Shown here piece by piece: positions 3,028-57,877 of a stretch of DNA of 64,000 bases. Below the pieces are notes generated by a model. That model ran no database searches. It was not told the origin of the DNA and was given only the letters and a program-made list of their open reading frames with translations. Numbering within the stretch: position 1 is the stretch's first letter; each line of letters starts with the position of its first letter. A program made the position numbers and the translations under genes. Location of the stretch: assembly GCF_023913775.1 (NCBI RefSeq), contig NZ_JAMXAX010000014.1, forward strand, positions 1-64,000. The letters are read 5' to 3'. This DNA comes from Acidovorax facilis (lineage in GTDB: Bacteria; Pseudomonadota; Gammaproteobacteria; Burkholderiales; Burkholderiaceae_C).

Positions 3028-3843
3028 TTACCTCCTGCGCACGGCACTGGCCGAAGCAGCCGCCGCTGCGGCATCGGTCACCACCGTGGTCACACCGCGC
3101 ATGCGCAGGGCGTAGCCCCCGGCATGCCGCAGGTCGGCGGACTCCAGGGCATCCACGCGCCGCCCGTACTGCGCAGCCACCTGTGTCAGGGTGCGCGTGA
3201 AGCGTTGCGTGCGCTGCACCACCTCCTGCGGTGTGCCGCCGCCCAGCTCCACCACGGCGTCGCTGTCCAGCGTGGCCCGCCAACCGCCCCGCCCCGTCAG
3301 CTCCAGCGTTTCCACCTCCAGCCCGAGCGGTTTGAACACCGGCTGCAGCAGGCCAAACATCTGCAGCACCTCGGGGGAGCTGCCCGCAGGTCCCAGCAGG
3401 CGCGGCAGGCCGTCCTGTTCCACATCACCCACGTTGGCCTCGAACACTTCGCCCTGGCTGTTGACCAGCGCAGAGCCGGTGTCCGGCCCCCAGTACGCCA
3501 CTGCGTCATGCTCCTGCAGTTCCACGCGCAGGCTGCCGGGGTACACCCGCCGCACCTGGGCGCGGCGCACCCAGGGCACTTGCTCGAAGGCCTCGCGCGC
3601 GGCACGCAAATCCACCGTGAAGAAATTGCCCACCAGGTGCGGCGCGACATTGGCCCGCAAGGTCACCGCGTTGTTGTGCACCAGCTCGCCCTGCACCACG
3701 ATGCGCGCAATCGCAAAGCCCGGGTAGCGCAGCACCCACCAGGCCCCCGCCGCCAGCACAAGCAGGACGCAGCCCACGAACAAGACCGATGCGGTCAGGT
3801 TCATGAGCTTGACGTCCAGCGGTGCGGGCAACGTTTGGGTCAT
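3028..3843 (-). CDS. ftsQ: Cell division protein FtsQ
   Basis: FtsQ is a bitopic inner-membrane protein that links early and late divisome proteins through its periplasmic domain. The 271-residue product has a short cytoplasmic N-terminus and one membrane span at about residues 17-40 (LTASVLFVGCVLLVLAAGAW). A POTRA-like segment follows, with FAIARIVVQGELVHNN and the FTVDLRAAREAFEQVPWV region typical of the family. The C-terminus is an Ala-rich stretch. Its start overlaps the ddl stop by one base (TGATG), which indicates translational coupling. Confidence 0.93.
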   Translation of the reverse strand: MTQTLPAPLDVKLMNLTASVLFVGCVLLVLAAGAWWVLRYPGFAIARIVVQGELVHNNAVTLRANVAPHLVGNFFTVDLRAAREAFEQVPWVRRAQVRRVYPGSLRVELQEHDAVAYWGPDTGSALVNSQGEVFEANVGDVEQDGLPRLLGPAGSSPEVLQMFGLLQPVFKPLGLEVETLELTGRGGWRATLDSDAVVELGGGTPQEVVQRTQRFTRTLTQVAAQYGRRVDALESADLRHAGGYALRMRGVTTVVTDAAAAAASASAVRRR

Positions 3844-4832: not shown

Positions 4833-6262
4833 AGCGCGCTCCCTTCAAGCGCTGAAAGCTCACTATTTTGTAGCATCTCCACCACCTTGCCAGGTACGGC
4901 GCCAATCGACCCTGCGCCCATGCACATCACCACGTCGCCGTCCTTCGCGTTGTCGGCAATGGCTTGCGGCAGGTCGGCCACGTTGTCGATGAACACCGGC
5001 TCCACGCGGCCCGCCACGCGCAGCGCACGGGCCAGCGATCGACCATCGGCGGCCACTACAGGCGCCTCCCCAGCGGCATACACCTCGGTGAGCAGCACGG
5101 CATCGGCGTTGCCGATGACCTTCACAAAATCCTCGAAGCAATCGCGCGTGCGGCTGTAGCGGTGCGGCTGGAAAGCCAGCACCAGGCGGCGCCCCGGGAA
5201 GGCACCCCGTGCGGCAGCCAAGGTGGCCGCCATTTCCACCGGGTGGTGGCCGTAGTCGTCGATCACGGTGAACTGGCCGCCGTCCTTGGCGGGCAGGTCG
5301 CCATAACGCTGGAAGCGCCGGCCCACGCCCTTGAAGCCGGCCAGCGCACGCTGTACGGCTTCGTCCGGAATGTTCAGCTCCACGGCCACGGCAATGGCCG
5401 ACAGCGCGTTGAGCACGTTGTGCTCGCCCGCGAGGTTGAGCACGATCTCCATGTCGGGCAGCGTGACGCCGTTGCGCCGCTGCACGGTAAAGCGCATCTG
5501 GCCCGCCTCGGCCCGCACGTTGATGGCGCGCACCTGCGCGTCTTCCGAGAAGCCGTAGCTGGTGATGGGGCAGGTCACGCTTTGCAGGATGTCGCGCACG
5601 GCGGGGCTGTCCACACACAGGATCGCCGTGCCGTAGAACGGCATGCGGTGCAGAAAATCGACAAACGCGCCCTTGAGCCGGCCGAAGTCGTGGCCGTAGG
5701 TCTCCATGTGGTCGGCGTCGATGTTGGTCACCACGGCCATCACGGGCAGCAGGTTCAGGAACGATGCGTCGGACTCGTCGGCCTCGACCACGATGTAGTC
5801 GCCGCTGCCCAGCTTGGCGTTGGCGCCTGCGCTGTTGAGCTTGCCGCCGATCACAAAGGTCGGGTCCAGGCCCGCCTCGGCCAGCACGCTGGTCACCAGG
5901 CTGGTGGTGGTCGTCTTGCCGTGCGTGCCTGCAATGGCGATGCCCTGCTTCAGGCGCATCAGCTCGGCCAGCATCAGCGCGCGGGGCACCACGGGAATTT
6001 TTTTCTCGCGCGCGGCCAGCACCTCGGGGTTGTCGGGCGTGACGGCGGTGGAGGTGACCACCGCATCGGCACCATCAATGTGCGCAGCCGCATGGCCCAG
6101 GCAGGTCTTGATGCCCAGCCCCTCCAGGCGGCGCAGCGTGGCGCTGTCGGCCAGGTCCGAGCCCGAGATGCGGTAGCCCAGGTTGAACAGCACCTCGGCG
6201 ATGCCGCTCATGCCCGCGCCGCCCAGGCCCACAAAATGGATATGGCGAATCGCGTGTTTCAT
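4829..6262 (-). CDS. murC: UDP-N-acetylmuramate--L-alanine ligase MurC
   Basis: MurC adds L-Ala to UDP-MurNAc, the first amino-acid step of peptidoglycan precursor synthesis. The 477-residue protein opens with [17 protein letters not shown] (UDP-binding domain), has the ATP loop GTHGKTTTT near residue 115 and the [10 protein letters not shown] motif of MurC. The last 15 or so residues ([14 protein letters not shown]) are encoded by a copy of the dispersed palindromic repeat, so the natural C-terminus appears to have been rewritten by the insertion. It is coupled to both neighbours by short overlaps. Confidence 0.97.
4830..4877. repeat. Dispersed palindromic repeat, family A, copy 1 (murC end/ddl start)
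   Basis: The pattern AGCGC-N8-AAGCGCT-N3-AGCT followed by TTTTG-TAGCA matches the better copies at 19920 and 62336. It overlaps the murC 3' end and the ddl start codon and supplies the MurC C-terminal residues. Confidence 0.65.
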
Positions 6263-8677: not shown

Positions 8678-10710
8678 GCCATGCCCTCCAGGGATTGCCC
8701 GGCATCGTCTGCCAGCGTGCGCACCGCGTCGCAGAAGACCTGTGCGCGGTGTTCGTAGTCCTTGAACATGTCAAAGCTGGCGCAGGCGGGCGACATCAGC
8801 ACGGCATCGCCCGCATGGGCCCGCTGCGTGGCCAGAGCCACAGCCTGAGGCAATGTCTCGGCATCCAGCAGTACCACGCCGCAGTCCTGCAGCGCAGCGC
8901 GGATCTGCGGCGCATCGCGCCCGATGAGCACCGCAGCGCGCGCATAGCGCGACACCGGCGCTGCGAGCGGCGAGAAGTCCTGCCCCTTGCCTTCGCCACC
9001 CAGGATGACCACGATGCGGCGCTCTGCGCCCAGGCCCGTAAGGGCCGCCACCGTGGCACCCACGTTGGTGCCCTTGCTGTCGTCAAAGTACTCAATGCCG
9101 TTGATGATGGCCACGGGCTCCACACGGTGCGGCTCACCCCGGTATTCGCGCAGCCCGTACAGCAGCGGGGCCAAGGTGCAGCCTGCGGCCGAGGCCAGGG
9201 CCAGCGCAGCCAGCGCGTTCACCGCGTTGTGGCGACCCCGGATGCGCAGCGCATCGGCGGGCATCAGGCGCTGGATGTGCAGGTCTTCCGCCACTTCGTT
9301 GCGGCCGCGCTTGCGGGTTTCATCCGCGTCCATCGCGCGTACCAGCCAGGGCATGCCGCTCACGACCTCAATGCCAAAGTCGCCGGGACGCCGGGGCATG
9401 TCGGCGCCAAAGGTCAGGTGCTCACGCATCAGGGGCTTTTGCAGCTTGACCTTCACCGGAGGCGGCAGCATCTGCATCACGGCCACGTCTTCGCGGTTCA
9501 AAATCATGAGCCCCGTCTGGCCAAAGATGCGCGCCTTGGCCGCCGCGTAGGCCGCCATGTCACCGTGCCAGTCCAGGTGGTCCTGCGTGATGTTGAGCAC
9601 GGTCGCCGCAGTGGGCTCAAAGTTGGTCACACCATCGAGCTGGAAGCTTGATAGCTCCAGCACCCACACCTCGGGCAACGTGCCGGCGTCGATGTGGCCC
9701 GCCAGGGTATCGAGCAACGTGGGGCCGATGTTGCCAGCCACGGCCACGCTCTTGCCCGAACGCTCCACGAGCTGGCCCGTGAGCGATGTGACCGTGGTTT
9801 TGCCGTTGGTACCGGTGATCGCCAGCACCGCCGGTGCGTAGCCATGGGATGCCCGCAGCGCGTTCAGCGCCATGGAATACAAACTTAGTTCGCCCCCAGC
9901 GCTTATTCCACAAGCACTAGCAGCTATCAAAACAGGAGCTATTGCCTCAGGACTCAAACCGGGAGAGCGGTAGACCGCGTTCAGGCCTCGGCCTTCCACC
10001 AGGCTGGCATCAAAGGCACCGGCGACAAAACGCACCTGGGGCAGCTCCTGCTGCAGCAGGGGCAGCTGTGGCGGCGCAGCGCGGGTGTCGGCCACGGTGA
10101 CTTCGGCCCCGCAGCGCACGCACCAGCGGGCCATGGCCAGGCCCGAGGCGCCCAGTCCCAGGATGAGGATGTTATGCCCTTGCAGCAGTTGGGCCATGGC
10201 TTCGCGCGGCGCGACCTGCGGCTCGGCCTCTGCGCCGGATGCACCCGGGGCGTCAACGTCTTCAACGTCGACACTGTGCTCGACGGGCGCGGCCTCGGGC
10301 GCCGATACGTCGGCAAAGATCTGCGCCACGAAATCGGCGGCAGCCTTGGCAGCCGAGATGGCGGGCACGGCTTCAGGGTCCCAGGTATGGCCCTTGGCGG
10401 GTGCGTTCCCGGCCGCAGGGGTCACGTCCGGCGCTGCCATTTCAGGCGGCACTGCGGCGACGGGTTCGCCAGCTTTGGACAACGGCTCAGCCGCAATGCC
10501 CACGCTGGGCTGCTGCGCATCGGTGTTCAGCGCCTCGGTATCGGTATCGGTATCGGTATCGACAGTTTCCGTGGGGTCCGGTGCAAAAAAGTCGTCACCG
10601 GCGGGCGCGTTCACGTCGGCGTCCGCGCCCGGCCCTGCCAACGGCCGCGCGGCATCGGGCGCCCCGGGTTCGGCGGGCGTGGGGCGGATGAGAGGCTCGT
10701 CAGCGTTCAT
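8674..10710 (-). CDS. murD: UDP-N-acetylmuramoyl-L-alanine--D-glutamate ligase MurD with a long N-terminal extension
   Basis: MurD adds D-Glu to UDP-MurNAc-L-Ala. The catalytic part starts near residue 172 ([19 protein letters not shown]) and has the ATP loop ITGTNGKTT and the [12 protein letters not shown] motif. The whole product is 678 residues, well above the usual 440-500. The first ~170 residues are a low-complexity Ala/Pro/Asp/Glu-rich segment containing DTDTDTDT at 51-58, encoded by four copies of a GATACC hexamer. The ATG at 10708-10710 overlaps the mraY stop (ATGA), so the extension is part of the coupled reading frame. A family A repeat encodes an extra [18 protein letters not shown] segment in the catalytic domain. 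Confidence 0.93.
9881..9945. repeat. Dispersed palindromic repeat, family A, copy 3 (inside murD)
   Basis: AGCGCTTATTCCACAAGC followed by ACTAGCAGCTATCAAAACAG closely matches the intergenic copies. The element lies within murD and is translated in frame from the opposite strand. Confidence 0.85.
10535..10561. repeat. Hexanucleotide tandem repeat in murD
   Basis: Four perfect copies of TCGGTA (GATACC-type on the coding strand) encode alternating Asp-Thr in the N-terminal extension of MurD. Because the unit is 6 bp, changes in copy number would lengthen or shorten the protein without a frameshift. Confidence 0.9.
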
Positions 10711-49414: not shown

Positions 49415-50080
49415 ATGAACGTGACTGCAACGACCCATGCGGGAGGAGTTCCGGGTGGCCACGGGGTCAATGAAGATTTGATCATCAAGGACGGCTTTAT
49501 CGTCGACCCACGCGTAGTCGATAAGCGCGTTGCGGCACTGGAACACGGCGCCATGACCAGGGTCGATGCCATCGTGCTGCACCAAACCGACAGCAGCACC
49601 ATGAATCTAGAACACGCCAAGACCGACGGGATCGGCGCGCACTTCTACATCGAAAAAGACGGCACCATTTACCAAACTGCGCGACTGGACCAGAGCGTCT
49701 ACAGCGTCGGAAAAATCCGCTCCCGATGCGATGACAGCCGAACCTGCAGCAAAGAAGAGAAAACGGCGATCGACACGCTCATGAACTCGTCTGCAAGCTA
49801 CGGCGCCAAAGTCAAAGCGCTCAACACCCGGGAGCAGGCCAAGGCCTACCCCGATCGATATCCCACCAACGGTGACTCCGTGGCCATTGAAGTGGTAGCC
49901 AAGTTCGACCCGAAGACAAAACTGTTCGAACGTCCCACGGCAGAGCAGACGGAATCGCTGAAATGGCTGACGCAGGCATTGGGTAGCCACTACGGGCTGG
50001 ACTTGCAAACGGACGTTTACCGTCACTCCGACATCTCTTACAAACAGGCCGATGAGGCCAAGAGCCTGGTGTTCCAATGA
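49415..50080 (+). CDS. PGRP/Amidase_2-type N-acetylmuramoyl-L-alanine amidase, candidate secreted effector
   Basis: Amidase_2 enzymes cut the bond between MurNAc and the stem peptide. The 221-residue product has candidate zinc ligands His56 in IVLHQTD and His204 in YRHSDIS with Asp213, plus GAHFYIEKDGTIYQ and SVAIEVV, all typical of the fold. It has no signal peptide, so it would need a dedicated route such as type VI secretion to reach peptidoglycan. The start at 49415 is set by a perfect AGGAGG 7 bases upstream. It overlaps by 4 bases a small exported protein, the usual layout of an effector/immunity pair. GC content is below that of its neighbours, which suggests horizontal acquisition. 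A phage-type endolysin is the main alternative. Confidence 0.8.
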   Translation: MNVTATTHAGGVPGGHGVNEDLIIKDGFIVDPRVVDKRVAALEHGAMTRVDAIVLHQTDSSTMNLEHAKTDGIGAHFYIEKDGTIYQTARLDQSVYSVGKIRSRCDDSRTCSKEEKTAIDTLMNSSASYGAKVKALNTREQAKAYPDRYPTNGDSVAIEVVAKFDPKTKLFERPTAEQTESLKWLTQALGSHYGLDLQTDVYRHSDISYKQADEAKSLVFQ

Positions 50081-50424
50081 GGGTGGCGCTGATCACCCTC
50101 TTGTCTTGTTGGGTCTGCGCGTCCGCAGTGGCACAGCCATCCAACCTTCATTGGGTACAGAGTTTCGCCGTCAAAGAAGGCACACGTAACCGCTGCGAAG
50201 CACCGCGCTTCAGTGAAGCCGAATTAAGGGCGTACTTTCTGCACGAAGCCAAGCGCGTCCCGGAAGAAGGGTTCGCGCAACGTGACTGGTCTGGCTGCTA
50301 CGCGGAAGGGTTCGCAGTAAACGCTCGGGGCGAACGCCAACTTCACTGGCAGCTCGACCTGCTGGGAACAGGAATCATCACCTGGACGGATGGCCAGACT
50401 CACCATTTCGCGCGCGAGCAGTGA
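50077..50424 (+). CDS. Small exported protein, candidate immunity protein of the amidase
   Basis: The 115-residue product has a clear signal peptide (MRVALITLLSCWVCASA, cleavage before VAQ) and a mature part of about 96 residues with two Cys (in RNRCEAPRF and WSGCYAEGF) that could form a disulfide in the periplasm. I do not recognise a family. Its ATG lies inside the amidase stop (ATGA), so the two proteins are made together in fixed ratio. A periplasmic partner for a peptidoglycan amidase is what an immunity protein would look like; the role is inference. Confidence 0.7.
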   Translation: MRVALITLLSCWVCASAVAQPSNLHWVQSFAVKEGTRNRCEAPRFSEAELRAYFLHEAKRVPEEGFAQRDWSGCYAEGFAVNARGERQLHWQLDLLGTGIITWTDGQTHHFAREQ

Positions 50425-50536
50425 GACGCTTCCCGCATCACCGCCCTGCTGCGCGGCTGGGCGCTGCCCCGCCAGCCATCGTAGGGCGGCCGCCGAGGCT
50501 TGCGCGGCAAACACCGCGCGGGACCACGCGCTGTGT

Positions 50537-52195
50537 CTAATGGCGTCGTCCCAACCATGACGGGAACGACGCCGAAGTCAACCGCTCCCAGTCCAGCCCA
50601 AACCGCGCTAGGTACTTGCGCAGCCGATCCGCATCATTGACCACCGTGCGCTGCGTGCGCGAGACTTGGAACAGCAGGCGCCCTGCGTCGGAAAGGGTGC
50701 GAGCTTGGCTGCACACCTGCAGCACGGCCGCCAGTTGCAGCCGATCGAACAGGTCCATGGCTTCCACCGTTTCTTCGCCCAGCAGGGCCGCAAGATCGTC
50801 GCGGCCCAACGCGCCGGGCGTAGACGCCAAACCGTTGCGCGCATCGCTGGCGGGCTGCCACAGCCAGCGCAGGCGGGCCATTTCGGCCTCGACCAGGGGC
50901 AGGCCAATGCGGCCGCTGTCGGCCAGCGTGGCCAGGCGCGTGACACTGGCGGAGAGGTCGCGGAAGTTGCCGGTCCACAGCGCCTCGGGCGACTGGGCAT
51001 AGCGCAGGTAAGCCACGCGCGCCTCGTTGGAAAAGCGCACGCTGCGTCCCAGCTCGGCACCTGCGCGGGCCAGCTGGTGGTCCACGTTGGGCTCAATGTC
51101 TTCAGGCCGCTGCGCCAGGCCCGGCAGCACATAGCTCCAGAGGTTGATGCGCGCATACAGGTCTTCGCGAAAGCGCCCGGCCGCCACCTCGGTGCGCAGG
51201 TCGCGGTTGGTGCCGGCGATCAGCTCGAAGTCGCTGGCCACCTCGCGGTCGCTGCCCATGGGGTAGAAGCGTTTTTCTTCCACGGCCTTGAGCAGCATGG
51301 CCTGCTCGTCCAGGCCCAGTTCGCCGATCTCGTCGAGGAACAACACACCCTTGTGTGCCGTGCGCAGCAGGCCTGCGCGGTCGGCTGCCGCGCCAGTGAA
51401 GGCGCCCTTCTTGTGGCCGAACAGTGTGGATGCTGCACCGTCGCCATGCAGCGTGGCGCAGTTCACTTCCACGAACTCGCCTTCGACCTGGTGGCGTGAC
51501 TTTTTCAGCTCAAACATGCGTCGCGCCAAATGCGACTTGCCCGCGCCCGTCGGCCCGGTGAACAGGATGGGCGCACGCGAGCGCACCGCCACGCGCTCCA
51601 CCTCGTCGATCAGCGCGTTGAAGCGTGCATTGCGCGTGGCAATGCCGCTTTTGAGGAACTGCACCGCGTCCTGCTGCTCGGCGCCAAAACGCTGGGCGAT
51701 CACGTCGTAGCGCGACAGGTCCAGGTCAATCAGCGCATAGCTGCCCGGGTTGCCCATTTTCTGGCGCTTGGGCGGTGAGGTTTGCACCAGCACGCCCGGA
51801 ATGCGGCGCGACTCCACCAGCAAAAACAGGCAGATCTGCGCCACGTGGGTGCCCGTGGTGATGTGCGTCCAGTACTCCTCGCGCTCGGTGTCAAAGCGGT
51901 AGCCCCGCGCCCAATCAAAGAGCTTGGCATACACCTCGCCAAAGTCCCAGGGGTCGGCAATGGGCAGGGGTACCAGGTTCACCGTGGTCTCGGGGGACGC
52001 GATCACCATGTCCACGCGCACCTGTTGCGCCAAGTCCTGGTGGGGCGGCGTGTAGAGAAGCTCCAGCCGCTCGATCACCACGTCCTCATGCTGCACCAGC
52101 GATACGGTGGGGCGCCACTTCTCCCAACGCCCCGCGCCCCGGCCGGAATCGAGCTGGGTGCCCAGGAAACCTATCACGACTTTGTTTTTGCGCAT
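50537..52195 (-). CDS. rtcR: RNA repair operon activator RtcR
   Basis: RtcR is a sigma-54 activator whose N-terminal CARF domain senses RNA ends from damaged tRNA and then switches on rtcBA. The 552-residue protein has the RtcR-specific N-terminus VVIGFLGTQLDSG and the LVQTSPPKRQ region, followed by an AAA+ domain. The latter has Walker A FTGPTGAGKSHLA, the sigma-54 contact loop GAFTGA (about 264-269), Walker B VLFLDEIGE and the arginine-finger region. The C-terminus lacks an obvious long HTH. It is divergent from the slipin-rtcB-rtcA operon, facing a sigma-54 promoter. Confidence 0.95.
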   Translation of the reverse strand: MRKNKVVIGFLGTQLDSGRGAGRWEKWRPTVSLVQHEDVVIERLELLYTPPHQDLAQQVRVDMVIASPETTVNLVPLPIADPWDFGEVYAKLFDWARGYRFDTEREEYWTHITTGTHVAQICLFLLVESRRIPGVLVQTSPPKRQKMGNPGSYALIDLDLSRYDVIAQRFGAEQQDAVQFLKSGIATRNARFNALIDEVERVAVRSRAPILFTGPTGAGKSHLARRMFELKKSRHQVEGEFVEVNCATLHGDGAASTLFGHKKGAFTGAAADRAGLLRTAHKGVLFLDEIGELGLDEQAMLLKAVEEKRFYPMGSDREVASDFELIAGTNRDLRTEVAAGRFREDLYARINLWSYVLPGLAQRPEDIEPNVDHQLARAGAELGRSVRFSNEARVAYLRYAQSPEALWTGNFRDLSASVTRLATLADSGRIGLPLVEAEMARLRWLWQPASDARNGLASTPGALGRDDLAALLGEETVEAMDLFDRLQLAAVLQVCSQARTLSDAGRLLFQVSRTQRTVVNDADRLRKYLARFGLDWERLTSASFPSWLGRRH

Positions 52196-52267
52196 TCTAT
52201 TTATCTATTTAGCTAGCTTTAATTCTAGTTATCTCAAATTCGTCTAAGAAGTAAAAAATCTGACGGA

Positions 52268-52306
52268 TGAATTTCTCCATACAAATCAAAGACTTGAAGA
52301 AATTCA
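52268..52306 (+). promoter_or_regulatory. Possible RtcR upstream activating sequence
   Basis: An inverted repeat TGAATTTC and GAAATTCA separated by 23 bp lies just upstream of the sigma-54 promoter in an AT-rich stretch. Position and symmetry fit an enhancer for RtcR, but I have no independent evidence of binding. Confidence 0.4.
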
Positions 52307-52322
52307 ACCGACAAAACTCAGG

Positions 52323-52339
52323 TTGGCACACATCTGGCA
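52323..52339 (+). promoter_or_regulatory. Sigma-54 promoter of the rtc operon
   Basis: TTGGCACA-CATC-TGGCA matches the -24/-12 consensus TTGGCACG-N4-TTGCA, with the invariant GG and GC spaced correctly. It reads away from rtcR toward the structured RNA region and slipin-rtcB-rtcA. RtcR is a sigma-54 activator, so promoter and regulator agree. Confidence 0.85.
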
Positions 52340-52352
52340 ATAGATAAGACAT

Positions 52353-52474
52353 CCAGCGCAAGCGGTGACCGCTCACAGGCCGGGGTTAGGACCACCGTTC
52401 GCCCCGCCGGTGCAGGGAATCCGGGCTCTCAAGGCCTTGTCGATTCCCCGCATGCCGCACGCCGCAAACGCTGG
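52353..52474 (+). ncRNA. Structured 5' RNA domain of the rtc transcript
   Basis: This segment starts within about 15 bases of the expected transcription start and is closed by a long-range stem, CCAGCG (52353-52358) with CGCTGG (52469-52474). Inside are a hairpin AGCGG-TGA-CCGCT, a CGGGG/CCCCG pairing and a perfect GGGAATC/GATTCCC stem. No convincing ORF is present. It directly precedes two tRNA-like modules, and together they probably form one non-coding RNA or a long structured leader of the slipin-rtcB mRNA. Confidence 0.6.
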
Positions 52475-52479
52475 GTAGA

Positions 52480-52537
52480 GGCAAGGTCGTGGTGACGCCT
52501 CGCAAGAGGACGTGCCGGGTTCGACTCCCGGCTTGCC
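52480..52537 (+). ncRNA. tRNA mimic 1 (no anticodon loop)
   Basis: The 58 nt fold as a miniature tRNA. It has a 6-bp acceptor stem GGCAAG/CTTGCC, a mini D-arm CGT-GGTG-ACG, an anticodon-arm equivalent CCTC-GCAA-GAGG capped by a GNRA tetraloop, and a 5-nt variable loop. A perfect T-arm CCGGG-TTCGACT-CCCGG with the universal TTC completes it. No 7-nt anticodon loop exists, so it cannot decode. No CCA is encoded. Confidence 0.8.
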
Positions 52538-52539
52538 AA

Positions 52540-52610
52540 CAACTGGTAGCTCAGTCTGGTAGAGCCCCGCCGAAAGGCGGTTGTCGCAGGTTCGATTCCT
52601 GCCCACGGCC
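52540..52610 (+). ncRNA. tRNA mimic 2 (GAAA tetraloop in place of the anticodon)
   Basis: U8-A9 are followed by a canonical D-arm GCTC-AGTCTGGTA-GAGC with the conserved GG, then CCGCC-GAAA-GGCGG where the anticodon arm should be. A 5-nt variable loop TTGTC and a perfect T-arm GCAGG-TTCGATT-CCTGC follow. The acceptor stem has only about three pairs (TGG/CCA). D- and T-arm conservation with loss of anticodon and acceptor marks it as a tRNA mimic, comparable to the tRNA-like module of bacterial Y RNA (YrlA). Confidence 0.8.
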
Positions 52611-52699
52611 GCAAGGCCAACACTTGGAAGTAACGGTCGAAAGACCACCCGCCGAACGCGGGGAGTTGTCCCAGGGTTGCGCTTCCTTTGGACGCAACC
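52607..52699 (+). other. Series of tight hairpins after the tRNA mimics
   Basis: Four consecutive stems can be drawn: GGCC-GCAA-GGCC (52607-52618), GGTC-GAAA-GACC (52635-52646), CCCGC-CGAAC-GCGGG (52648-52662) and GGTTGCG/CGCAACC (52675-52699). Two carry GNRA tetraloops. From here to the slipin gene at 52907 I see no ORF, terminator or further clear structure. Repeated GNRA capping supports a functional RNA rather than chance GC-rich pairing. Confidence 0.6.
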
Positions 52700-52906
52700 G
52701 CAAGGCAAGACCCCGTCAGCCGGTGGCGGTTTGTGCCAGCACCCGGCACAGCCCGCGCCCGCAGCCAGCCACGCTGCCGCCGTGCTTGCAGGGCAGCAAC
52801 CACGGCGCACTGCAGGGCCCTGGCTGTGCCCCCTGGCACCCCGCCATTGCTGTAACGGCACCCTGATTGCAATGACAACGATGTAACGAAAACGAGGAGA
52901 AGAAAA

Positions 52907-54049
52907 ATGATGAAGCTGATCCAACGAGTGACCGTGAAGAAAAACGAACGCGCCCTGCTGCTGCGCAACGGCAGCTTTGACCGCGTGCTCCAAAGCGGTA
53001 CCTACTGGCTGTTTGCGGGCATGGACCAGCTGCGCGTAGAGACCTTCGCCCTCGAACAACCCGCCTTCACCCACGGCCTGGCCGACTACCTGATGGCGCA
53101 GGAGCCTGCCGTGGTGGCTGCCGAATTCGTGCAGGTGAACCTGTCGGAGCAGCAAGTGGGCCTGCGCAGCGAAAACGGCGTGCTGGTCGAGGTGCTGCCC
53201 CCTGGCACCCGCCGCCTTTATTGGAAAGGCCTGGTGGAGGTGAGTGTGCAGGTGATCGACCTGGAGGCGGGCCCCGAACTGCCCGCCGCCCTGGTGGCGC
53301 GCCTCACGCACACACAACTGCGCCAGCGCAGCGTGACCGGATTGACCGGCGTGCTGCAGGTGCAGGTGCCTGAGGGCCAGTGCGCATTGCTCACCATCGA
53401 CGGCAAAGTGGACCGGCTGCTGCCTGCAGGCGCCTACGCGTTCTGGAAGTACGGCCGCACCATCGCCGTGGAGCTGGTGGACCTGCGCCTGCAAGCCGTG
53501 GAGGTATCGGGCCAGGACATCATGACCCGCGACAAGGTGAGCCTGCGGTTGAATCTGTCGGCCACCTTCCGCTACACCGATGTGCTGCGCGCCTTTGCCC
53601 AGTTGCAAAAGCCTGCCGAACACCTGTACCGCGAGTTGCAGTTTGCGCTGCGCGCCGCCGTGGGCACCCGCACGCTCGATGAGCTGCTGGAGAACAAGAC
53701 GGTGATCGACGACGTGGTGACCGCGCACATGGCTACCAAGCTCATGCCTTTTGGCATGGTGATGGAAAGCGTGGGCGTGAAGGACATCGTGCTGCCTGGC
53801 GAGATGAAGACCATCCTGACCCAGGTAGTGCAGGCGGAAAAACAGGCCCAGGCCAACGTGATCCGCCGCCGCGAAGAAACCGCCGCTACGCGCTCGCTGC
53901 TCAACACGGCGAAGGTGATGGAGGACAACCCTGTTGCCCTGCGCATGAAGGAGCTGGAGACGCTGGAACGGGTGGCTGAACGCATCGACAAGATATCGGT
54001 GTTTGGTGGACTGGACCAGGTGCTCAATGGCCTGGTGAAGATGCGTTGA
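52907..54049 (+). CDS. Slipin (SPFH/band 7) family protein of the rtc operon
   Basis: The 380-residue protein has two band 7-like halves: residues 1-130 (KKNERALLLRNGSFDRVLQSG) and the SPFH core at about 155-330 (VPEGQCALLTIDGKVDRLLPAG, SGQDIMTRDKVSLRLNLSATFRY, ENKTVIDDVVTAHM, VGVKDIVLPGEMK). A coiled coil with VQAEKQAQANVIRRREET follows. No membrane span is evident, unlike many slipins. A strong GAGGAG site precedes the ATG. Slipins recur in RtcR-controlled operons, but their role in RNA repair is unknown. Confidence 0.9.
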   Translation: MMKLIQRVTVKKNERALLLRNGSFDRVLQSGTYWLFAGMDQLRVETFALEQPAFTHGLADYLMAQEPAVVAAEFVQVNLSEQQVGLRSENGVLVEVLPPGTRRLYWKGLVEVSVQVIDLEAGPELPAALVARLTHTQLRQRSVTGLTGVLQVQVPEGQCALLTIDGKVDRLLPAGAYAFWKYGRTIAVELVDLRLQAVEVSGQDIMTRDKVSLRLNLSATFRYTDVLRAFAQLQKPAEHLYRELQFALRAAVGTRTLDELLENKTVIDDVVTAHMATKLMPFGMVMESVGVKDIVLPGEMKTILTQVVQAEKQAQANVIRRREETAATRSLLNTAKVMEDNPVALRMKELETLERVAERIDKISVFGGLDQVLNGLVKMR

Positions 54050-54076
54050 GCAGCCATAGACAAAGAGAAGATCGTG

Positions 54077-54820
54077 ATGAAAGCAAAGAAACTGACTGCG
54101 CGTGAAAGGCGCCTGAGCCGGGAAACCATCTCAGTGAGTTGCGAGTCCGTAGGGCTGGACTCGGCGGTGTACCACGCAGCATTGCGCTACCTTTTCGACC
54201 GCCCCGTGCCAGAAAAAGGCGGGCAAGAGTGGTACTGGGATATCGACGAGCCCGAGTTCGAAGCCACGCCACGGCAATGGACGCACATCCAGACCGTGCT
54301 GTTCGCCAACGCAGGAAACGATCTGGCGCCGTACAGCGACGATCAGGTCGGAATGGGTCTGAACCATGTGATGAGCAACAACGCGGGCGACATCCCGCAC
54401 ATGGTGAACGACCCGACCGTGCCGCTGGACGACGCGATGCGCATGGTGCGGGCCTTGCCCACCCTGTGGCGCGACTGCCTCGGCCCGCGCCTGAGCACTG
54501 CCGAGCAGAGCACGATCGGGAGCAGAAGCGACCGCCTCTACTTCGTGAGCTACATGTGGTTTGACGTATGGCCCACGTTCTGGAACGCCAAGCACATCCC
54601 CGAGTGGCGCGATGCGATATGGCAGGTGTTCTGCGAGATGCTGGCTATGCCCTGGCGCGAAGCGCAGATATCGGCTTTGCACGGGATCGGCCATGAGGGC
54701 AACCGCCTGAACCGGCACCAGGAATTGCAGGCACACATGGATGCTTTCATCCGCCAGGTGAAGAACGACGACGAACTGAAAAACTATGCCCAAGCCGCAG
54801 CGCGTGGAATGGTTCAATGA
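54077..54820 (+). CDS. Hypothetical protein of the rtc operon
   Basis: The 247-residue soluble protein is rich in Trp and His (WYWDIDEPEFEATPRQW, YMWFDVWPTFWNAKHIPEWRD, LHGIGHEGNRLNRHQ) and shows no signal peptide, membrane span or motif I recognise. The HGIGHEGN segment could bind metal, but that is speculative. I start at the ATG 54077, 6 bases after AGAGAAG, rather than the adjacent GTG. It lies between slipin (27-bp gap) and rtcB (22-bp gap), so it is cotranscribed and likely takes part in the RNA-damage response. Confidence 0.8.
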   Translation: MKAKKLTARERRLSRETISVSCESVGLDSAVYHAALRYLFDRPVPEKGGQEWYWDIDEPEFEATPRQWTHIQTVLFANAGNDLAPYSDDQVGMGLNHVMSNNAGDIPHMVNDPTVPLDDAMRMVRALPTLWRDCLGPRLSTAEQSTIGSRSDRLYFVSYMWFDVWPTFWNAKHIPEWRDAIWQVFCEMLAMPWREAQISALHGIGHEGNRLNRHQELQAHMDAFIRQVKNDDELKNYAQAAARGMVQ

Positions 54821-54842
54821 ACAACAAAGACGAAAGAACAAT

Positions 54843-56066
54843 ATGAACAACAACTACGAACAATACGAAGTCCCCAATGGCGTCCCCGTGAAGATGTGGA
54901 CCAACGGCGTTCCCGTGGAAGAAGAAGCCCGTAACCAGCTGCGCAACATTGCGCGCCTGCCCATCGTGTTCAAGCACGTGGCGGTGATGCCCGACGTGCA
55001 CCTGGGGATCGGCGCGACCATCGGCTCGGTGGTGCCCACCCTCAAGGCCATCATCCCCGCTGCGGTGGGGGTGGACCTGGGGTGCGGAATGATGGCGTGC
55101 AAGACCACGCTGACGGCCAGCGACCTGCCCGACAACCTGTCCGGCGTGCGCGCCGCCATCGAACGCGCGGTGCCGGTGGGGATGACGCCCAAACGCATGG
55201 GCCGCGATAAAGGCAGCTGGGACACCCCGCCCGCCGAGACCGACCGCGCCTGGGCCGGTCTGGTGGATGAGTTCGAGGAAATTTGCGAGGCGCACCCGCG
55301 CATCAAGAACACCAACAACTACAAGCACCTGGGGACGCTGGGAACGGGTAACCACTTCATCGAGATCTGCCTGGACGAACACCAGTCCGTGTGGGTGATG
55401 CTGCACTCCGGCTCGCGTGGGGTGGGTAACGCCATCGGAACCCACTTCATCGAGCTGGCCAAGAAGGACGCCGAGATGAACCAGCGCAACCTGCCGGACA
55501 AGGACCTGGCCTACTTCGAGGAAGGCGCGCAGTATTTCGGTGACTATGTGAAGGCCGTGGGGTGGGCGCAGAAATTTGCTGCCGCCAACCGCGAGGTGAT
55601 GATGGGCCGCGTGATTGCCGCGCTGCGCACCGTGATCACCAAGCCTTTCGAAACGCATGTGGAAGCAGTGAACTGCCACCACAACTACGTGCAGCGCGAG
55701 ACGCACTTCGGGCAAGAGGTGTTTGTGACCCGCAAGGGCGCAGTGAGTGCCGAACAAGGCAAGCTGGGGATCATCCCGGGGAGCATGGGGGCCAAGAGCT
55801 TCATCGTGCGCGGAAAAGGCAACCCCGAGAGCTTCAACAGCTGCAGCCACGGGGCGGGCCGCACCATGAGCCGCACCAAGGCGAAGAAGATGTTCACCAT
55901 CGAAGACCAGATCAAGGCGACCGAGGGCGTGGAATGCCGTAAGGATGCCGACGTGATCGATGAGATTCCGATGGCGTACAAGGACATCGATGCGGTTATG
56001 GCGGCGCAGCAGGACCTGGTGGAGGTGGTGTACACGCTCAAGCAAGTTGTTTGCGTGAAGGGGTGA
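54843..56066 (+). CDS. rtcB: RNA-splicing ligase RtcB
   Basis: RtcB joins 2',3'-cyclic-phosphate and 5'-OH RNA ends using GTP and Mn2+. The 407-residue protein has the metal and active-site motifs MPDVHLGIGATIGS (about 49-62), GVDLGCGMMACKT with Cys81, GTGNHFIEI, HSGSRGVGN and SHGAGRTMSR. His336 is the residue guanylated in catalysis (His337 in E. coli). Length and N-terminus match the E. coli-type enzyme. The ATG at 54843 is preferred over an in-frame upstream start overlapping the previous gene. Confidence 0.97.
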   Translation: MNNNYEQYEVPNGVPVKMWTNGVPVEEEARNQLRNIARLPIVFKHVAVMPDVHLGIGATIGSVVPTLKAIIPAAVGVDLGCGMMACKTTLTASDLPDNLSGVRAAIERAVPVGMTPKRMGRDKGSWDTPPAETDRAWAGLVDEFEEICEAHPRIKNTNNYKHLGTLGTGNHFIEICLDEHQSVWVMLHSGSRGVGNAIGTHFIELAKKDAEMNQRNLPDKDLAYFEEGAQYFGDYVKAVGWAQKFAAANREVMMGRVIAALRTVITKPFETHVEAVNCHHNYVQRETHFGQEVFVTRKGAVSAEQGKLGIIPGSMGAKSFIVRGKGNPESFNSCSHGAGRTMSRTKAKKMFTIEDQIKATEGVECRKDADVIDEIPMAYKDIDAVMAAQQDLVEVVYTLKQVVCVKG

Positions 56067-56069
56067 TAT

Positions 56070-56792
56070 ATGACTGAACAGGAAATTCAGACAAGATATT
56101 CCGTGCACTTTTGCGAGTTAGACGCGCAGATAGTCCGGCTAGAAGCGGTTCTTCGCGAACACTCATTCCTCTCGGGGAAGATGCAGCACGTTGTCGTGCA
56201 CGCCCTTGTGTTGCGATTGATAGAGCTTGCGCGCAGCTGCGGGATCTTGTCCAAGACCGGGATGGCTGCAGCAAGTGCATCCCTGAACCGCCAATGTTTG
56301 GAGATAGGTTTCAAGCTAAAGGCCATCTGTAGTGGCAACGCTACTGCTGAGGACTTCATGACTCAAGAAATCATCTCTCGTGCGAAATCACGTCGGTGGG
56401 TGCTGCAGAACGCTGCAGCGCTTGAAGCACTAGGACCAGAATTGTCCAAGAGCCTCGCCAAAGAGGCCGACGAAGCGGTCCGCTTGGAAGAAACAAAAGG
56501 CCTCAAGGAGATCAAGCCGTACGAATGGGCTGCACGCGCTGAAGAAATAGAGGTGTACCTGTTTGCATACTCAACACTCTCAGATTTCATTCACTGCGGG
56601 CCAGCGTCTTTAGGCCATATCTTCGATGTCAAACAGGATGGTCAGGTGTTTATGCAAACGGGACCTTCTGACTATCTTATTGAACATGTGATTGAAGGCG
56701 CCTGCCATTGCCTCGCCTCGTCAAGCAACGCTATCCAAGCCATGTTCGCCAAAAACGCGGACGCACAGATCCCCCCATGCACAGCGCCTTGA
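56070..56792 (+). CDS. Hypothetical protein inserted between rtcB and rtcA (DUF5677-like)
   Basis: The 240-residue helical protein (VVHALVLRLIELARSCGILSK, SLNRQCLEIGFKLKAI, SDFIHCGPASLG) resembles the DUF5677 group by pattern; this is a tentative recognition. Its coding sequence is visibly poorer in GC and uses different codons from rtcB and rtcA, which points to acquisition from another source. It starts 3 bases after the rtcB stop and its end overlaps rtcA by 16 bases, so it is fully integrated in the operon. The function is unknown. Confidence 0.75.
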   Translation: MTEQEIQTRYSVHFCELDAQIVRLEAVLREHSFLSGKMQHVVVHALVLRLIELARSCGILSKTGMAAASASLNRQCLEIGFKLKAICSGNATAEDFMTQEIISRAKSRRWVLQNAAALEALGPELSKSLAKEADEAVRLEETKGLKEIKPYEWAARAEEIEVYLFAYSTLSDFIHCGPASLGHIFDVKQDGQVFMQTGPSDYLIEHVIEGACHCLASSSNAIQAMFAKNADAQIPPCTAP

Positions 56793-57877
56793 CGAATACC
56801 AGCCTGCATCCCCTCACCCTCGACGGCTCCACCGGCGAAGGCGGCGGCCAGATCCTGCGCACCGGCCTGGCCCTTGCCATGGTCACTGGCCGGCCGCTGC
56901 ACATCACCCGCATCCGCGCCGGGCGCCCCAAACCCGGCCTGATGCGTCAGCACCTGGCCTGCGTGCAGGCGGCGGTGGCTGTGTGTGGCGGACAGGCCGA
57001 GGGAGCCGAGCTGGGGTCGCAAACCCTGTTGTTTACACCCGGTGCCGTGCGCGCCGGCGACTACCGCTTTCAGATCGCCACGGCGGGCAGTTGCCTGCTG
57101 GTGCTGCAGACCGTGCTGCCGGCGTTGATGCTGGCCGATGGCGAAAGCCGCGTGCAGCTCTCGGGCGGCACGCACAACCCGATGGCGCCGCCGTTTGACT
57201 TTCTGGAGCGGGCGTTTGCACCGCTGGTGCGGCGGCTGGGCGTGGGCCTGGATCTGCAACTGCAGCGGCGCGGCTTCTACCCCGCCGGGGGTGGCGAGCT
57301 GCTGGCGCACATCACGCCCGCAGCGCTGCCGTTGACGCCCGTGGATGTGCTGGAGCGCGGCCCGCTGCAAGACGCGTGGGGCGAGGCACTGGTGCCGGGT
57401 CTGGCGCGCAACATTGCCACGCGGGAGCTGGACGCGCTGGGCCAGCGCATGGGCTGGACCTTTGAATCCGGCCGACTGCGCCAGCCCCCTACGCGCCAGA
57501 ACGAAGGCCCGGGCAACGCGTTGATCGCCACGCTGGAGTACGAGCACATCACCGAGGTGTTCTGCCAGCTGGGCGAGCGCGGCCTGTCGGCCGAGCAGGT
57601 TGCCAAGCGGCTGGTGGATGAGGTGCGCGACTACCAGCGCAGCGCGGGTGCCCTGGGCCCGCACCTGGCCGACCAGTGGATGCTGCCGCTGGCCCTGGCG
57701 GTGTGGCGCAGCGGGCGGGCCGCGCGCTATACCTGTACCGAGGTGACGCAGCACACTGCGACCAACGCACAGACGATTGCGCGGGGGCTGCCGGTGCGGG
57801 TGCAGATCACGCCAGTGGACAAAGCCATGCTGGTGGAGATCAGCCCGCTGCTGCAAGCCGGTCTGTATCGGCTTTGA
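56777..57877 (+). CDS. rtcA: RNA 3'-terminal phosphate cyclase RtcA
   Basis: RtcA converts RNA 3'-phosphates to 2',3'-cyclic phosphates with ATP. The 366-residue product has the family start LDGSTGEGGGQILRTGLALA, the RAGRPKPGLMRQHL segment, GGGTH-type and YPAGGGEL motifs, and His326 in TQHTATNAQT as the likely AMP-accepting residue. The ATG at 56777 overlaps the upstream unknown gene by 16 bases. It is the last gene of the rtc operon. Confidence 0.95.
   Translation: MHSALTNTSLHPLTLDGSTGEGGGQILRTGLALAMVTGRPLHITRIRAGRPKPGLMRQHLACVQAAVAVCGGQAEGAELGSQTLLFTPGAVRAGDYRFQIATAGSCLLVLQTVLPALMLADGESRVQLSGGTHNPMAPPFDFLERAFAPLVRRLGVGLDLQLQRRGFYPAGGGELLAHITPAALPLTPVDVLERGPLQDAWGEALVPGLARNIATRELDALGQRMGWTFESGRLRQPPTRQNEGPGNALIATLEYEHITEVFCQLGERGLSAEQVAKRLVDEVRDYQRSAGALGPHLADQWMLPLALAVWRSGRAARYTCTEVTQHTATNAQTIARGLPVRVQITPVDKAMLVEISPLLQAGLYRL

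Follow-up and report, generated by a model that had tools for sequence, protein, structure and literature searches.

RNA-repair operons are reported by Burroughs and Aravind 2016 to include the scaffold cofactors Rot/TROVE and SPFH/Band-7 together with cognate non-coding RNAs, the latter reportedly being Y RNAs and a 'novel tRNA-like molecule'. The RNA described here lies in a 64,000-nucleotide stretch of Acidovorax facilis DNA (the window) from a 6.42-Mb genome, and we take it to be probably that SPFH-linked tRNA-like molecule: like the one reported in 2016, it is non-coding, resembles tRNA and adjoins an SPFH gene within an operon that contains RtcB. Relative to the 2016 report, the tandem arrangement of the tRNA-like modules, the 5′ three-way junction and the 3′ domain are possibly new, as are possibly the loss of the modules in some Pseudomonas, a branch of loci that lacks rtcR and carries HNH and tRNA genes, and the occurrence of Ro60 and YrlA in the same operon slot in one genome of the genus. 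A literature search that covered mostly open-access work returned no published description of this RNA.

Excerpts of PMC7790460 state that the rtc operon responds to damaged tRNAs and suggest that YrlA may competitively inhibit a nuclease, and an excerpt of PMC13086221 places an SPFH gene within the rtc locus of P. aeruginosa PA14. Like YrlA with Ro60 (Rsr), the slipin-linked RNA mimics the tRNA elbow and belongs to an operon of the RtcR type, where it has a scaffold protein and RtcB as neighbours; unlike YrlA, it has a slipin as its putative partner, keeps its arms in ordinary tandem order and has large extra domains. It also resembles GOLLD, for which excerpts of PMC5966550, PMC9569102 and PMC12286853 report tRNA arrays with HNH and, among them, nanocages, in being large and structured and in occurring close to tRNA arrays and HNH endonucleases. 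However, its gene company is different, and the GOLLD Rfam model gave no match either in positions 50000-57000 of the window or at seven related loci, of which four have tRNA genes and lack rtcR. In the TrcR regulon of Anabaena, according to excerpts of PMC10272220, a stress-induced 26-tRNA operon, HNH endonucleases, the slipin alr0740 and rtcB answer to one repressor. The rtcR-less loci described below comprise the same set of parts, although in Anabaena the genes are scattered and the regulator is another, and this match of parts suggests that such loci may serve a general response, whether to damaged tRNAs or to translation stress.

The genes of the operon and the parts of the RNA have the following positions in the window.

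50537-52195, minus strand: rtcR, divergent sigma-54 activator (PF06956, E=5.5e-81; Sigma54_activat, E=4.4e-49)
52324-52339, plus strand: sigma-54 promoter TGGCAC-N5-TGGCA, sequence TGGCACACATCTGGCA; aligns in 26/26 genus rows with small changes
52345-52483, plus strand: 5′ domain, three-way junction and two hairpin arms (extent of the match to model R2, 85.5 bits, the window being among the training rows)
52480-52537, plus strand: tRNA-like module 1, with 6-bp acceptor, 3-bp D hairpin, GCAA-capped arm and T-arm with TTCGACT
52544-52605, plus strand: tRNA-like module 2, with 3-bp acceptor stub, full D-arm, GAAA-capped arm and T-arm with TTCGATT
52607-52618, plus strand: GGCC-GCAA-GGCC hairpin, with a double change at one pair in 9 rows
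52635-52646, plus strand: GGTC-GAAA-GACC hairpin, near-invariant in the genus
52647-52859, plus strand: 3′ domain, starting ACCCGCCG and ending GCTGTAACGGC, with strong sequence conservation
52907-54049, plus strand: slipin (SPFH/Band 7; PF01145, E=1.3e-30)
54074-54820, plus strand: 248-aa protein with no Pfam match
54843-56066, plus strand: RtcB RNA ligase (PF01139, E=2.7e-129, scored on the longer frame 54786-56066; start hand-picked)
56070-56792, plus strand: DUF5677 protein (PF18928, E=5.2e-18)
56708-57877, plus strand: RtcA cyclase (PF01137, E=2.9e-75; open frame, the true start may be further in)

Between the sigma-54 site and the slipin gene lies a structured RNA of about 510 nt (about 52350-52859), and the analysis confirmed it as a real, conserved non-coding RNA of patchy spread. 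The original prediction had seen dense RNA structure and no credible ORF in this gap, and both observations held. Inside the RNA, 159 of 180 indels relative to the window are not multiples of three, on which ground a protein-coding reading of the gap was rejected, and the fold is more stable than all 100 shuffles (z = -3.86), with covariation in the 5′ domain and most module arms. In the genus, a DNA search found the RNA region in 26 of 47 genomes, its own included, and the slipin in 25, the same genomes except one (G030) whose contig stops inside the RNA; thus all 25 slipin-bearing genomes carry the RNA. The 26-row genus alignment (A2), which runs from the promoter to GCTGTAACGGC, contains long conserved stretches, and its RNAalifold consensus has 137 pairs, 33 of them with at least one double change. 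Aligning related rtcR-slipin gaps, which had been proposed as a check, revealed compensatory changes in the modules (20 genus rows) and in the 5′ domain (31 loci).

Transcription is expected to start near 52350, judging from the sigma-54 promoter. The placement of this promoter ahead of the RNA was upheld, since the site is kept in 26/26 genus rows and tracks the presence of rtcR: when loci with more than 900 nt upstream of slipin were scanned with a loose pattern, a sigma-54-like site occurred within 950 nt upstream of slipin in 50/51 loci with rtcR versus 0/27 without. A sigma-70 scan of 52200-54200 found no site.

Across 81 slipin loci (80 relatives and the window), the 5′ three-way-junction domain is the most constant part of the RNA. 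Model R2 finds it in 77 of them, 31 of which trained the model, and misses L095 and three loci with less than 400 nt upstream (L069, L103 and L114). The closed 5′ domain of the original prediction, with its closing stem at 52352-52357/52470-52475, is borne out as a three-way junction by covariation in an alignment of 31 diverse loci (A6): 94.0% of cells are paired versus 80.5% after shuffling, 15 of 23 pairs have changed on both sides, and the covariation score of 0.425 (0.178 shuffled), for a structure derived from the same alignment, is reached by 0/500 shuffles. The outermost pair is broken in 9/31 loci, and the motifs CACAGG, CCGGUGC and GCAUGCCGC mark the domain without all being invariant. 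The 3′ domain exhibits little covariation because its sequence is very conserved. Four successive GNRA tetraloops (GCAA, GAAA, GCAA, GAAA) stand in a row at 52502-52642, one in each module and one in each of the two hairpins that follow, and tertiary docking by this row is possible.

The tandem modules were found to be largely as predicted: both are supported, module 1 at 52480-52537, although module 2 spans strictly 52544-52605 and not 52540-52610. The T-arms with TTCGANT noticed in both (TTCGACT and TTCGATT) also form in energy folding, and the D-arm of module 2, full by sequence, forms when this module is folded singly. The Rfam tRNA model (RF00005) scores 35.9 bits on module 2, above its cut-off of 29, whereas a full tRNA cloverleaf (7-bp acceptor, 7-nt anticodon loop) does not fit the 3-bp acceptor and GAAA loop; ARAGORN called no tRNA anywhere in the window. 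Covariation was assessed for 37 hand-drawn pairs in 20 genus rows (A4); six rows, including the window, were excluded, as MAFFT had misplaced their module-1 arm, which is longer. In this set 98.3% of cells are paired versus 90.2% in shuffled alignments, slid pairings reach at most 45.4%, and 14 of the 37 pairs have changed on both sides. The covariation score was reached by 0/500 shuffles; the count of further pair types is unexceptional, being matched by 55/500. Double changes fall in module 1 on the acceptor (1/6 pairs), D hairpin (2/3), arm (3/6) and T-stem (1/5), and in module 2 on the arm (5/5) and T-stem (2/5), its acceptor and D-stem being invariant in these rows.

Model R1, built on the tandem modules, has a match in the 800 nt before slipin in 75/81 loci, 74 of which could be parsed (L069 could not; the parse demands a D-arm of set form). 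The exceptions are two contig ends (L103 and L114), three Pseudomonas loci (L104, L108 and L112) and L091 (12.6 bits). In the three Pseudomonas loci the 5′ domain and slipin are kept and the modules are absent, so tRNA mimicry is not always needed. Over the 74 parsed loci the T-loop TTCGANT is present in 73 for module 2 and in 66 for module 1 (in four of the remaining module-1 copies the script found no T-arm), with 64-78 nt from T-arm to T-arm. The three pairs of the module-2 acceptor stub are kept in 68, 71 and 68 loci, versus 37, 35 and 6 when slid by one; pair 1 is G-C in 42 and A-U in 24, and pair 3 is U-A in 31, G-C in 26 and C-G in 9. A fourth pair occurs in 42/74 versus 43 when slid, and there is no stem further out.

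Energy folding of the whole RNA or of the tandem alone gives both T-arms and the module-2 arm; it gives no acceptors, no module-1 D hairpin and no module-2 D-arm. Folded singly, module 1 forms 5/6 acceptor pairs and the T-arm, its D hairpin being absent, and module 2 forms every stem. In the RNAalifold consensus for the entire RNA, the 5′ half of module 1 (columns 162-174) is instead base-paired to the 3′ domain (451-462). As these alternative pairs have zero double changes and the module-1 D hairpin they would break does have them, we took the modules as drawn, the module-1 acceptor being their least certain part. The features of a tRNA elbow, T-arms and the GG of the D-loop, are present by sequence and covariation, and the D- and T-loops would presumably make the elbow contact.

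GNRA loops (GCAA or GAAA) cap both module arms in 26/26 genus rows by eye, as had been described for the window, where these tetraloops replace the anticodon loop. The absence of an anticodon loop is nevertheless no essential feature of the RNA, as module 2 has a 5-bp stem and a 7-nt loop of varying sequence in 33/74 loci, and a quick slipin tree implies at least six (hand list) or nine (length rule) changes of arm type. The 7-nt group retains some of the anticodon-loop pattern of tRNAs, with U33 kept in 28/33 and a purine at 37 in 22/33. Four Pseudomonas loci have module-2 loops of 3 or 4 nt (TTCG in L109), and several module-1 copies appear by eye to have no anticodon arm altogether. A conserved elbow with a variable anticodon end argues for elbow recognition rather than escape from anticodon nucleases.

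With R2, the RNA was found family-wide in 34/399 genomes and 14/141 genera, and class-wide, under stricter filters, in 1/369 genomes, its own, so that it is either patchy or drifting beyond the model. Searching with the RNA model independently of slipin, we observed that slipin adjoins the RNA in 29 of the 30 loci examined out of 35 family matches. The one without slipin (L133, about 1500-1634) has a broken HNH gene and a 5′ domain with no R1 or slipin match in the examined stretch, and looks like a decayed copy.

These 30 loci fall into two architectures, with rtcR upstream in 13 and HNH in 17 and never both within the stretch. The 80 related loci, analysed by tblastn, comprise 50 with divergent rtcR, of which one (L067) also has HNH, and 30 without rtcR in the stretch (two being contig ends), of which 21 have HNH. 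One or more ordinary tRNA genes occur upstream in 22/26 rtcR-less loci versus 2/50 rtcR loci, with up to 19 in L097 when a module call at 3678 is excluded. Same-strand arrays of tRNA genes with many anticodons precede the RNA at L060 (106-2813), L062 (1723-2878), L083 (354-1631), L097 (609-2868) and others, and such arrays at rtcR-less loci are possibly a supply of replacement tRNAs. A search for RtcR domains covered 22 genomes, 20 of them with an rtcR-less locus, and 19 of these 20 gave no match to the domain. RtcB was found in 74/80 loci and RtcA in 29/50 with rtcR versus 2/30 without, in each case over a stretch of limited length. An initial view, in which a tRNA-array locus had acquired rtcR, was rejected, as the slipin tree, a quick one with midpoint root and less than 80% support on 27/78 inner branches, instead nests the HNH type among rtcR types.

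Two loci connect the slipin-linked RNA with Ro60. The first, in Albitalea terrae (L067), carries tRNA genes, HNH, rtcR, the slipin-linked RNA and slipin, then Ro60 (vWA_Ro60 71.2 bits; TROVE 24.0, cut-off 23) and YrlA before RtcB, and is the sole locus of the 80 with a match to its Ro60. This Ro60 as query against the 47 genus genomes gave one match, at C1:60364-61914 with 72% identity, in a genome (G044) in which the genus-wide searches for slipin and for the RNA found neither. There the locus (L145) reads rtcR, sigma-54 site, Ro60, three YrlA matches, 248-aa protein, RtcB and RtcA, the site TGGCACACCCATTGCG lying by eye about 50 nt before Ro60. The tandem YrlA matches at 5346-5721 score 70.1, 59.1 and 38.4 bits, one of them above the cut-off of 69; slipin has no match at this locus, and R2 matches do not exceed 12.4 bits there. 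From their sharing of one operon slot we infer that the slipin-RNA and Ro60-YrlA pairs do the same kind of job, the swap resting on one genus genome (G044) plus L067 with both pairs; as both occur in L067, the pairs are not strict alternatives.

Taking the computed structure, conservation, slipin linkage and promoter of the RNA together with its replacement by Ro60/YrlA in one genus genome, we give an even chance to its being a slipin-cognate scaffold RNA that mimics the tRNA elbow, as the counterpart of YrlA-Ro60. RtcR would sense damaged tRNA and open the sigma-54 promoter, from which the RNA (about 510 nt) would be made first, with slipin and rtcB/rtcA coming after it. The 5′ three-way junction, and probably also the 3′ domain, would dock on a membrane-scaffolding slipin oligomer, and the tandem modules would present tRNA elbows (D-loop/T-loop) by which factors for tRNA handling or repair are recruited or positioned, much as YrlA may act with Ro60 but with a different protein. 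The RNA should then be stable, bind slipin and gather repair factors at the membrane. The earlier idea of a ligand or scaffold for RtcR or RtcB survives in its scaffold part, but slipin is the better-supported partner (25/25 genomes, 29/30 loci). We propose more tentatively, as a possibility that we still rather doubt, a distinct class of large proteobacterial RNA with a slipin-partnering 5′ junction and losable tRNA mimics, in a tRNA-damage recovery unit of two branches: RtcR, RtcB and often RtcA for repair, and tRNA arrays, as possible replacements, plus RtcB. If the slipin-scaffold reading is true, RNA-repair operons can swap Ro60-YrlA for slipin and this RNA, and the scaffold idea is directly testable on an RNA that now has a defined extent, structure and search models; the analysis also joins tRNA repair, tRNA-gene arrays and membrane scaffolds.

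Since the RNA lies in cis to slipin, upstream on the same strand and with no terminator-like site on the plus strand in the RNA-slipin interval, the linkage alone would also fit a leader controlling slipin, in which a factor is contested between the mimics and real or damaged tRNAs, and slipin/rtcB translation or read-through is set thereby, a T-box-like logic reversed. We consider such a leader unlikely: at loci where the GCTGTAACGGC end motif was located, its distance to the slipin match varies over 33-167 nt, Ro60 in L145 is driven by the same type of promoter with a leader of less than 60 nt by eye, and about 510 nt with separate domains is in our judgement large for a leader switch. Another role for the modules would be as RNase P and 3′ tRNA-processing sites that excise the RNA from a polycistronic transcript, as mascRNA does in MALAT1. 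An acceptor stacked on the T-arm is possible in module 1, the mascRNA Rfam model matches weakly (22.6 bits, below the cut-off of 42.5), and the RNA of rtcR-less loci follows tRNA genes, which need processing; the acceptor of module 2, however, has just 3-4 bp and three Pseudomonas loci without modules keep slipin, making excision as the main function quite improbable, while RNase P excision is compatible with the slipin-partner reading as a maturation step. That the RNA is instead an RtcR ligand feeding back on its own operon is highly improbable. Its position as the presumed first product of the RtcR promoter and the response of RtcR to damaged tRNA (in excerpts of PMC7790460) speak for it, but the role, already part of the original prediction, loses weight through the presence of the RNA at loci without rtcR (17/30 in the examined stretch) and in genomes without it (19/20 searched genomes with an rtcR-less locus).

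Replacement of the anticodon loop, by GNRA in the genus and by 3- or 4-nt loops in four Pseudomonas loci, would suit a decoy or competitive inhibitor for anticodon nucleases, and excerpts of PMC7790460 propose a role of this kind for YrlA; yet the absence of the loop is not conserved, given the 33/74 loci with a 7-nt module-2 loop and the armless module-1 copies, and we regard a decoy as very unlikely. The last alternative, a divergent Y RNA of the YrlA family, draws on the tRNA-elbow mimicry and operon that YrlA shares with this RNA, on a YrlA (RF02553) match of 34.7 bits that spans T-arm 1 and D-arm 2, and on reciprocal weak R1 matches, which reach 15.4 bits and fall on the YrlA stretch of L145 or next to it. 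That score is half of the gathering score of 69, however, and the absence of Ro60 noted for the window extends to its whole genome, with 0 matches to the TROVE profile or the Ro60 protein query, and to all 26 RNA-bearing genus genomes. The TROVE profile (PF05731) had 0 matches in the 47 genus genomes and missed the Ro60 of G044, so its silence is weak evidence and the protein search is the better test. Furthermore, L067 bears the slipin-linked RNA and a separate, above-cut-off YrlA (81.1 bits), and in L031-L033 CCA and UGG are by eye one base apart, making the permuted YrlA hairpin impossible. The kinship with Y RNAs that had been suggested is accordingly barely credible.

Some smaller observations concern the operons themselves. 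The DUF5677 gene sits between rtcB and rtcA in the window and has no tblastn match at 1e-8 in the 80 related slipin loci, and the 248-aa protein has relatives in slipin-type and Ro60-type operons, L145 being an example of the latter. L067 (57-8501) also bears a YrlB-like RNA, and in L145 an RNase P RNA gene (9251-9570, 213.5 bits) lies directly downstream of rtcR.
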